Source: Isoptericola halotolerans (GTDB lineage Bacteria > Actinomycetota > Actinomycetes > Actinomycetales > Cellulomonadaceae). Taken from it: a DNA stretch of 64,000 bases. The notes under the pieces were generated by a model. The model saw only the letters and a list, made by a program, of their open reading frames with translations, did no database searches and was not told the DNA's origin. Made by a program: the position numbers and the translations under genes. The DNA is taken from positions 1,550,001-1,614,000 of the forward strand of contig NZ_JABEZU010000001.1 in NCBI RefSeq assembly GCF_013149785.1. Direction: 5' to 3'. Positions 18,876-29,811 of this stretch are shown in pieces. The stretch's first letter is position 1. Each line of letters opens with the position of its first letter.

Positions 18876-19967
18876 TCAGCGGCTCGGGTCGGCGAGCCTG
18901 CCGGCCGCCGGTCGCCGTGCGACGCTCCCGACGGTGCCGGGCCCGGCGGGGATGGCGGTCCGTTCGACGATGTCCTGCACCACCTCGGTGGCGCTGACCC
19001 CGGCCAGGCGGGACTCCGTCGAGAGGATGAGGCGATGCGCCAGCACAGGCACGGCGAGCGCCTGCACGTCGTCCGGCAGGACGTGCTGGCGGCCGGCCAT
19101 CGCCGCATGGGCCTTCGCGACCCGGAGCAGCTGGAGGGACGCCCGCGGCGAGGCACCCAGCCGCAGCCCAGCGTGGTCGCGGGTGCCGACGGCGAGGTCG
19201 ATGATGTACTGCTTGACGGCGGGGGCTGCGTGCACGGCTCGGGTCCAGGCGGTGTAGCGGGTCATCGCCTCCGCCGTGGTGACGGGCTCGAGGTGTGCGA
19301 ACGGGTCGGCGGACTGCTGCGCGTCGAGCATGGTCATCTCGGCGGCGTTGTCGGGGTACCCGACGGCGAGCCGCGCCATGAAGCGGTCGCGCTGCGCCTC
19401 CGGCAGAGGGTAGGTGCCCTCCATCTCCACGGGGTTCTGCGTCGCGACGACGAGGAAGGGCCGTGGCAGCGTGTACGTGGTCCCGTCGATCGTGGTCTGG
19501 CCCTCTTCCATGCACTCCAGGAGCGCGGACTGGGTCTTGGGGGAGGCACGGTTGATCTCGTCGCCGATCACGACGTTGTTGAAGACAGGCCCGGGGCGGA
19601 ACTCGAACTCACCGCTGGTGGACCGGTAGATGTTGACCCCGGTGAGGTCGCTCGGCAGCAGGTCGGGCGTGAACTGGACCCGGCCGACGCGGCAGTCGAT
19701 GCTGCGTGCGAGTGCCTTGGCCAGGGTCGTCTTGCCGACTCCCGGGACGTCCTCGACGAGGAGGTGACCTCCGGCCAGGAGCACGGCCACGGTGACCCGG
19801 ACGAGGTCGGGGCGGCCGGTCACCACGGTCTCGAGCGCCTGTCGCACCCGGCCGGTGGCAGCGACCAGCTCGCCGAGGCCTGCGCGGAGCGCGTCGGGGC
19901 CGGGTTCTGCGGGCGGGGCAGGAGGGTGGCCGGCGCTGACGGCGCTGGTGGCGTGGTCGGTCTGCAC
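18876..19967 (-). CDS. MoxR-family AAA+ ATPase
   Basis: A 363-residue AAA+ ATPase with Walker A EDVPGVGKTTLAKAL, Walker B NVVIGDEINRASPKTQSALLE, sensor 1 VVATQNPVEMEGTYPLPEAQ and a lid domain. MoxR ATPases are chaperone-like and act with VWA/DUF58 proteins. It is the first gene of the moxR-DUF58-TgpA operon. The GTG at 19967 has GGAGGG nine bases upstream. It is divergent from mraZ across 248 bp that hold operators for both sides. Confidence 0.9.
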   Translation of the reverse strand: MQTDHATSAVSAGHPPAPPAEPGPDALRAGLGELVAATGRVRQALETVVTGRPDLVRVTVAVLLAGGHLLVEDVPGVGKTTLAKALARSIDCRVGRVQFTPDLLPSDLTGVNIYRSTSGEFEFRPGPVFNNVVIGDEINRASPKTQSALLECMEEGQTTIDGTTYTLPRPFLVVATQNPVEMEGTYPLPEAQRDRFMARLAVGYPDNAAEMTMLDAQQSADPFAHLEPVTTAEAMTRYTAWTRAVHAAPAVKQYIIDLAVGTRDHAGLRLGASPRASLQLLRVAKAHAAMAGRQHVLPDDVQALAVPVLAHRLILSTESRLAGVSATEVVQDIVERTAIPAGPGTVGSVARRPAAGRLADPSR

Positions 19968-20005: not shown

Positions 20006-20037
20006 AGCCTAGTCGCTCCGTGACCTGCGCGTGACCT
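20006..20037 (-). promoter_or_regulatory. moxR promoter region: -10 TAGGCT and an 8-bp direct repeat
   Basis: On the minus strand TAGGCT lies at 20011-20006, putting transcription start near 19999. The -35 region is covered by a direct repeat (CGTGACCT on the plus strand at 20019-20026 and 20030-20037, 11-bp period), which looks like an operator. No good -35 hexamer is present. Confidence 0.45.
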
Positions 20038-20062: not shown

Positions 20063-20078
20063 CTCCACCGCGCTCCAC
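20063..20078 (-). promoter_or_regulatory. Second, reversed MraZ-like box (two GTGGAG repeats)
   Basis: On the minus strand GTGGAG occurs at 20068-20063 and 20078-20073, exactly 10 bp apart, the same motif and period as the MraZ box in front of mraZ but pointing towards moxR. It lies roughly 65-80 bp upstream of the predicted moxR transcription start. Confidence 0.4.
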
Positions 20079-20159
20079 CAGCACCACAGCGACCTGACCT
20101 GGGGTGATGTCGGGACAGGGCGCGGGATGGGTACCTCTGCCCATGTCGTGACGCGCCTG

Positions 20160-20185
20160 GTGGAGGAAAGTGGAGTAGCGTGGAG
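20160..20185 (+). promoter_or_regulatory. MraZ box: three GTGGAG direct repeats at 10-bp period, over the mraZ -10
   Basis: GTGGAG occurs at 20160-20165, 20170-20175 and 20180-20185. MraZ is known to autoregulate the dcw operon by binding short direct repeats at about one per DNA turn. A -10 candidate TAGCGT at 20176-20181 lies inside the array, so binding would block transcription. Confidence 0.75.
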
Positions 20186-20215
20186 TGAGCGGGAGCCCGA
20201 GGGGAGGTGCGGACC

Positions 20216-20689
20216 GTGGCAGGAGCACTGGGGGACCAGTTCCCGGGCACGGGGCTGCTCCTCGGCACGTACACCCCTCGGCTCGACGAGAAGGGCCGGC
20301 TCATCCTCCCGGCGAAGTTCCGTGCTCGGCTCGCCGCAGGGCTCGTCATGACGCGGGGTCAGGAGCGATGCCTGTTCCTGCTGCCGATGGACGAGTTCTC
20401 CCGCATGTACGAGCAGGTCCGGCAGGCGCCGGTCACCAGCCGGCAGGCACGCGACTACCTGCGTGTGTTCCTGTCGGGGGCGAGCGACGAGGTGCCGGAC
20501 AAGCAGGGGCGCGTGGTGATCCCCGCGGCGCTGCGCGAGTACGCAGGCCTCGACCGGGACGTCGCCGTGATCGGCGCCGGCACCCGGGTGGAGATCTGGG
20601 ACGCCGGTGCCTGGGAGGCCTACCTGGCCGCGCAGGAGTCGTCCTACTCCGACGTGGCCGAGGAGATCTTCCCCGACCTCCAGTTCTGA
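20216..20689 (+). CDS. mraZ: Transcriptional regulator MraZ
   Basis: First gene of the dcw cluster; a ring-shaped AbrB-like DNA-binding repressor of the cluster. The 157 residues contain the two tandem SpoVT/AbrB-like repeats: [17 protein letters not shown] (about 20-36) and [15 protein letters not shown] (about 92-106). The GTG at 20216 is chosen because GGGGAGG sits eight bases upstream; an in-frame GTG at 20207 overlaps that site. It is followed by 170 bp without a gene before rsmH, which contains no recognisable element apart from the rsmH ribosome binding site. Confidence 0.93.
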
Positions 20690-28363: not shown

Positions 28364-29811
28364 CCCAGGACGCCGGTCCCTCCGCCGGGGCGGGCGGGGC
28401 GGTCGACCTCGTCGACGGCCGCCGCGTGGTGGTCGCCGGGCTCGGGGTCACCGGACGGGCCGTCGTCTCGGCGCTGCAGGGCCGGGCGGCCTCGGTCACG
28501 ACGGTGGACGCCCGGGCCGTGGACGCCGACGTGCGCGGGGCGGACGCCTCGGACCCGCAGGTCGTCGCGCGCCTCCTGACCGGCGCGGACCTCGTGGTCG
28601 TCTCGCCGGGGTGGCCACCGACGGCGCCGCTGCTGTCGGCGGCACGGGCCGCGGGCGTGCCGGTGTGGAGCGAGGTCGAGCTCGCCTGGCGGCTGCGCGC
28701 CGGCGCGCCGTGGCTGGCGGTGACCGGGACGAACGGCAAGACCACGACCGTGCAGATGCTCGCCTCGATCCTCACGGCAGCCGGGCTGCGGACCGCCGCG
28801 GTGGGCAACGTCGGCACCCCGGTGCTGCAGGCTGCGCAGGATCCCGGCCTCGACGTGCTCGCCGTCGAGCTGTCCAGCTTCCAGCTCCACCACACGTCGT
28901 CCATGGCGGTCGAGGCCGGCGCCGTCCTCAACGTCGCCGCCGACCACCTGGACTGGCACGGGTCGCTGGACGCCTATGCCGCCGCCAAGGGTCGCGTCTA
29001 CGCCGGCGCGCAGGTCGCCTGCGTCTACAACGTGGCCGACCCGCGCACCGAGCAGCTGGTGCGCGACGCCGACGTCGCCGAGGGGGCGCGGGCCGTCGGC
29101 TTCACGCTCGGCGCCCCGGGGCCGGGTCAGCTCGGCGTGGTCGAGGACGTCCTGGTGGACCGTGCGTTCCACGCCCCTGCGGACGCCCGTGACAGGCTCC
29201 GGACCGCCGCCGAGCTGGGGACCCTGGCCGACCTGGCCCACCTGGGACCGGACGGGGCACCGCCGCACGTGGTCGCGGACGCTCTCGCCGCCGCGGCGCT
29301 CGCCCGTGCCCACGGGGTGGAGGCCCGGGCCGTGCGCGACGGTCTGCGGGCGTTCCGTCCCGACGCGCACCGTGCCGCCGTCGTCCGCACGCTCGACGGC
29401 GTGGCCTACGTCGACGACTCCAAGGCCACGAACGCCCACGCGGCTGCCGCGGCGCTGGCGGCCTGCGCACCCGGGACCGCCGTGTGGATCGCCGGGGGGA
29501 TGGCCAAGGGCGCCTCCTTCGACGACCTGGTCTCGAGCCGGGCCGACCGGCTGCGAGCGGCCGTCGTCCTCGGGACGGACCCTGCCCCCTGGACGGACGC
29601 CCTGGCGCGACACGCACCCGAGGTCCCGCTGGTCGTGGTCGATCCCGGCGACACTGGGACCGTGATGCACCGGGCGGTCAGCGCCGCGCGGGAGCTCGCC
29701 GTCCGCGGCGACACCGTGCTGCTCGCACCCGCCGGGGCGTCGATGGATCAGTTCTCGTCCTACGCCGAGCGGGGTGACGCCTTCACCGCCGCGGTGCGGG
29801 ACCTGGCGTAG
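28360..29811 (+). CDS. murD: UDP-MurNAc-L-alanine:D-glutamate ligase MurD
   Basis: Adds D-Glu to UDP-MurNAc-L-Ala. 483 aa from a TTG start that overlaps the mraY stop (TTGA), in keeping with the 4-bp overlaps of the cluster; an in-frame GTG at 28348 is the alternative. Motifs: GLGVTGRAV (N-terminal Rossmann), [13 protein letters not shown] (ATP loop), [20 protein letters not shown] and [11 protein letters not shown]. It ends with TAG, 8 bp before ftsW. Confidence 0.94.

Follow-up and report, generated by a model that had tools for sequence, protein, structure and literature searches.

The intergenic region between moxR and mraZ of Isoptericola halotolerans contains two arrays of MraZ-type boxes, a promoter-proximal array (F) and a second, inverted array (R1). 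Computation established that R1 has the box sequence of F, recurs across relatives in inverted orientation, lies at whole helical turns from F and occurs independently of moxR. We consider it probable (roughly 0.62) that R1 serves the mraZ (dcw) promoter, and not moxR, as an auxiliary operator for MraZ, and that MraZ complexes on F and R1 loop PmraZ. MraZ would have to bind R1, the two complexes would have to bridge, and the effect would presumably be repressive.

Opposed arrays of MraZ-type boxes between moxR and mraZ

Within the window (the whole 64,000-nucleotide stretch of DNA analyzed), moxR-DUF58-TgpA on the minus strand diverge from mraZ-rsmH-ftsL and the remaining dcw cluster on the plus strand; the identities of moxR, DUF58, TgpA, and MraZ were confirmed by Pfam. 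The moxR gene (18876..19967, minus strand) matches AAA_3 and AAA_lid_2, and mraZ (20207..20689, plus strand) is an open reading frame matching both halves of the MraZ family. The listed mraZ start, GTG 20207, adjoins a ribosome-binding-like AGGGGAGG at 20200-20207, and GTG 20216 is more likely to be the start. The gap between the genes is ∼240-248 bp and contains both F and R1.

Array F (20160..20185, plus strand), the putative main MraZ operator, consists of three GTGGAG boxes at 20160-65, 20170-75, and 20180-85. It reads GTGGAGGAAA GTGGAGTAGC GTGGAG and spans the predicted mraZ -10 element, TAGCGT (20176..20181, plus strand), which overlaps box 3; TANNNT occupies this position in most relatives. 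Upstream of it, R1 (20063..20078, minus strand) has two inverted GTGGAG boxes at 20073-78 and 20063-68 (GTGGAGCGCG GTGGAG, read from 20078 to 20063), with the motif and the 10-bp step of F. A sequence-only reading had described three copies at a 10-bp period over the mraZ -10 and two upstream on the other strand at the same period, and its coordinates and orientations proved exact for both. The 5′ base of R1 is 82 bp from the 5′ base of F, and the arrays are 97 bp apart from start to start. Short GTGG-type boxes at a 10-bp step, as expected of MraZ operators, are thus present three times in F and twice in R1, and the same matrix recognizes them in relatives.

The -10 elements, start sites, and moxR promoter used here are predictions. 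That of moxR, TAGGCT (20006..20011, minus strand), was assigned from the sequence and an alignment of the genus, and the start site that it implies would place R1 at about -79 to -64.

The inverted array recurs across Actinomycetes

Regions upstream of mraZ from the window, 56 order-level relatives, and 80 genomes drawn from the class formed a first set, in which array F was found in 120 of 137 loci. A reverse-strand pair with at most one mismatch occurred within 600 bp in 68 of the 137; block shuffles gave a mean of 0.8, and the mirrored pattern gave 5. Scanning 40-125 bp upstream of F with a matrix built from the boxes of both F and R1, to which the F-R1 distance was not an input, gave an inverted array at 56 of 136 loci versus 2 in the same orientation. 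When F was fixed by its own TANNNT, 39 inverted matches were found versus 0 in the same orientation, again phased. In 80 named loci (Isoptericola, Cellulosimicrobium, Cellulomonas, Oerskovia, Actinotalea, Kocuria, Micrococcus, and others), from species partly shared with the first set, an inverted array was present at 59 versus 1 in the same orientation, searched over 40-300 bp. The genomes are related, so that kinship inflates these statistics and the p values in this work are indicative.

The inverted pair recurs across the order and the class. It was also kept close to home: loss of the reversed pair among close relatives would have counted against the sequence-only reading, yet 13 of the 18 genomes of the genus set, including the window, retain it with at most one mismatch, 11 as R1 and 2 only as a more distant array, R2. 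Some congeners (L005, L006, L012, and L013) have lost R1 or kept a single box, and at the motif stringency used R1 is missing from more than half of the class-wide loci.

The arrays go with mraZ, which is present in this genome; they are absent where MraZ is absent. One family of large genomes (f35; G072 and others), probably Streptomyces as judged indirectly, has rsmH and no MraZ match at all, and in it neither a pair upstream of rsmH nor an excess of pairs was found. Separately, a contig titled Vibrio cholerae strain 35D (L219; WNZI01000013.1) has an Arthrobacter-like actinobacterial mraZ region, and this assembly is probably mislabelled or contaminated.

F, R1, and R2 share a helical phase

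The distances between F and R1 are confined to values near 62, 73, 83, 94, and 105 bp and so follow 62 + ∼10.5n. In the matrix scan, they fell at 60-64 (21 loci), 71-74 (14), 81-83 (14), 94-95 (2), 104-106 (3), and 117-119 bp (2), and the gaps between these classes were empty. A search for R1 and F as exact patterns joined by a gap of 50-111 bp matched 45 + 11 of 396 genomes of the order, with 0 for the control pattern; measured to the nearest F pair, their distances were only 60-62, 70-73, 82-84, and 94-95 bp. All scans pooled gave only 60-64, 71-74, 81-84, 91-95, 104-107, and 114-119 bp. The centers of the arrays are ∼83, 94, 104, or 115 bp apart, about 8, 9, 10, or 11 helical turns, so that across species the two arrays have the integral-turn separation of a looping pair.

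The best period of the F-R1 spacing is 10.9-10.95 bp, with a resultant of 0.85-0.87 at 10.5-11 bp versus 0.75 at 10 bp; the permutation test of the spacing used 15 departures from 62 bp, listed by hand. Arrays that gain or lose boxes in 10-bp steps were considered as a cause of the spacing classes, and this is disfavored, since the steps between classes measure 10.5-11 bp (62, 73, 83, 94.5) and not 10 bp; moreover, the TGACCTG element described below moves by whole turns with respect to R1 as well as F. Insertion or deletion of whole turns of DNA is therefore favored.

Many loci carry the further inverted array R2 in the same phase, 156-249 bp from F (54 of 80 named loci), with clusters near 168, 177, 188, 199, 210, 220, and 230 bp in the named set. 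The joint best period of F, R1, and R2 is 10.55 bp. The phasing of R2 alone is modest, with p about 0.006-0.03 on unique values.

A phased TGACCTG element lies between the arrays

A conserved TGACCTG element (20095..20101, plus strand) is located in the interval separating the arrays, at a distance of 17 bp from R1 and 65 bp from F. This element next to R1, TGACCTG(C/G)G, was found at 28 of 56 loci with R1 and at 26 of 80 without it (control, 1 of 56). Its distances to F in relatives, 54-56, 65-66, 75-76, 87, and 98 bp, are helically phased, and those to R1, likewise phased, are 6-7, 17, or 28 bp. A second TGACCTG is present at 20021-20027 (plus strand), ∼10 bp upstream of the predicted moxR -10, and one factor on this sequence might act at both the mraZ and moxR promoters.

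The element bears on the main alternative to a loop, in which MraZ bound at R1, alone or together with a TGACCTG-binding factor, contacts RNA polymerase at PmraZ, as activation or anti-activation, with no protein bridge. Upstream activator sites likewise need to be phased with their promoter, and TGACCTG keeps both its phase with F and its set distances from R1. Another regulator, MtrA, acts at the mraZ promoter of Dietzia (PMC9602371), a likeness in that a second regulator serves an actinobacterial mraZ promoter, and another factor between R1 and F is therefore plausible; no site motif that could be matched to TGACCTG was found in that paper. However, R2 shares the phase at 156-249 bp, a long reach for touching polymerase directly; R1 is built of the boxes found in F; and the reported action of MraZ is repression (PMC8475190). 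On balance, polymerase contact is an unlikely explanation.

The inverted array accompanies mraZ and not moxR

The sequence-only reading had also proposed that MraZ co-regulates the divergent moxR-DUF58-TgpA operon, with R1 as its operator. R1 and R2 do face moxR, R1 would lie ∼64-79 bp upstream of the predicted moxR start in the window, and in Cellulomonas relatives R2 is often 28-51 bp upstream of the predicted moxR -10. However, R1 was found at 37 of 87 loci with a divergent moxR versus 19 of 49 without. Presence of moxR was scored from tblastn and simple ORF calls, and a few contigs stop close to mraZ. Relatives lacking moxR there (Micrococcaceae such as Kocuria, Micrococcus, and Arthrobacter agilis, and others) retain R1 and often R2. 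The nearest upstream gene at the moxR-less loci inspected is usually a co-directional DUF3040 gene, a family with a member beyond TgpA in the window as well.

Insertions of foreign-looking genes have put the moxR and mraZ operons ∼5 kb apart in two relatives (L024/L138 of G019 and L031/L139 of G031). No array was found adjoining moxR in either, and R1 itself is lost; TGACCTG stays with mraZ in both. In a third relative, moxR is 10 kb away and R1 is kept 63 bp from F. Exact pairs did not fall at relocated or other moxR copies.

Measured from the predicted moxR -10, R1 is scattered over 63-429 bp with a resultant of 0.04, versus 0.92 relative to F; for R2, the values are 0.25 and 0.65. R1 thus neither depends on nor travels with moxR, and it is neither fixed nor phased with respect to the predicted moxR promoter. 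Since it is independent of moxR, kept where moxR is gone, and out of phase with the moxR -10, the reversed array can be assigned to mraZ. The moxR-less and moxR-separated genomes, with the absent phase, lead us to reject co-regulation of moxR as the main reason for R1; moxR is probably not the target of R1, and a dedicated moxR operator appears quite improbable. A side effect on moxR of MraZ at R1 or R2 is possible, because MraZ on R1 would sit upstream of the predicted moxR start and because R2 lies near the predicted moxR -10 in the Cellulomonas relatives.

Exact pairs in this genome are confined to the mraZ/moxR region

The exact pattern GTGGAGN4GTGGAG has 3 matches in the whole 3.97-Mb genome, all in the mraZ/moxR intergenic region. 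The reversed control pattern has 0 matches in this genome and 0-7 per genome in relatives, so that the probability of a chance pair within 248 bp is ∼1e-4. Lone GTGGAG hexamers do occur at chance level in the window (63 versus 56 expected), but that the reversed pair arose by coincidence or belongs to a hairpin is a very remote reading when the only exact pairs of the genome sit here, conservation far exceeds the controls, phasing is strict, and the single-strand folding energy of the region is ordinary (z = -1.16), which also led us to reject an F-R1 hairpin. The reversed pair is a probable second docking site for MraZ, real and widely conserved.

Pairs that are exact in several relatives were also noted ∼8-9 kb downstream, with a counterpart at 28665-28680 in the window that has one mismatch. 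This pair was rejected as an operator: it lies in murD coding DNA (VWSEVELA) and probably reflects coding conservation.

A proposed loop at the mraZ promoter

In the mechanism that we favor, an auxiliary operator at R1, MraZ rings would sit both on F, at the promoter, and on R1 farther upstream. With R1 inverted and whole turns away from F, the two MraZ-DNA complexes would share one face of the helix. Their interaction would form a small DNA loop of about 60-100 bp, by which the dcw operon would be autorepressed more strongly or more finely, and many relatives would add R2 as a third phased array. Geometrically, a simple wrap around one rotationally symmetric ring would call for two arrays in the same orientation; inverted arrays would suit two face-to-face rings or a full-turn loop. 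Bridging of the arrays by MraZ rings had been raised from the sequence alone. It gains indirect support from the spacing at integral turns, held over many genera, and from the near absence of same-orientation arrays, and the bridge itself we infer.

Apart from this geometry, the auxiliary operator is favored by the only exact pairs of the genome lying here and by a phase that is tight to F and absent to moxR. Against it, the phasing would also fit contact with RNA polymerase or with the TGACCTG factor, and R1 is absent from some congeners. Taken together, the comparisons suggest a small loop formed by MraZ at its own promoter, and not control of the neighboring moxR genes. The chances are about even for the broader proposal that MraZ rings package the dcw promoter into a small loop across Actinomycetes through F, R1, often R2, and a TGACCTG-bound factor, with the ring shape bridging DNA segments.

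Few regulators of the bacterial division and cell-wall cluster are as conserved as MraZ. If the proposal holds, bridging DNA segments would be what the shape of the ring is for. Promoter fragments with the proximal boxes alone would omit part of the operator in these bacteria. A conserved inverted array at whole turns offers a direct and cheap test of looping, by half-turn versus full-turn insertions.

Comparison with known systems

MraZ represses its own cluster in Mycoplasma genitalium and in E. coli, the latter as cited in the same paper (PMC8475190), and it binds promoter repeats in Burkholderia cenocepacia (PMC7761207). A toroidal MraZ octamer is cited for Mollicutes in the latter paper, and solved MraZ chains in the PDB include 1n0e, 9qlg, 9sx6, 9qlr, and others. 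The boxes at the mraZ promoters of E. coli, B. cenocepacia, and Mollicutes resemble F, being 10-bp direct repeats over or next to the promoter that serve autorepression (PMC7761207; PMC8475190). In contrast to those reports, which describe one proximal array, the loci studied here add an inverted one 60-119 bp upstream and, in many cases, a third, all in phase. A literature search, with many subscription papers outside its reach, found none linking MraZ with control of moxR or with looping, and none describing a remote inverted array held strictly in phase with the helix. Boxes for MraZ at its own gene are already known, and the remote, inverted, phased array appears new relative to the literature searched.

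Looping repressors at lac (O1-O3), gal, and araBAD use phased auxiliary operators. The system described here differs from these in that a MraZ ring and arrays of boxes take the place of a LacI- or AraC-type protein, and in that the loop is one we infer. It resembles them in having at least two operators for one regulator, whole helical turns apart, at about 80-230 bp.
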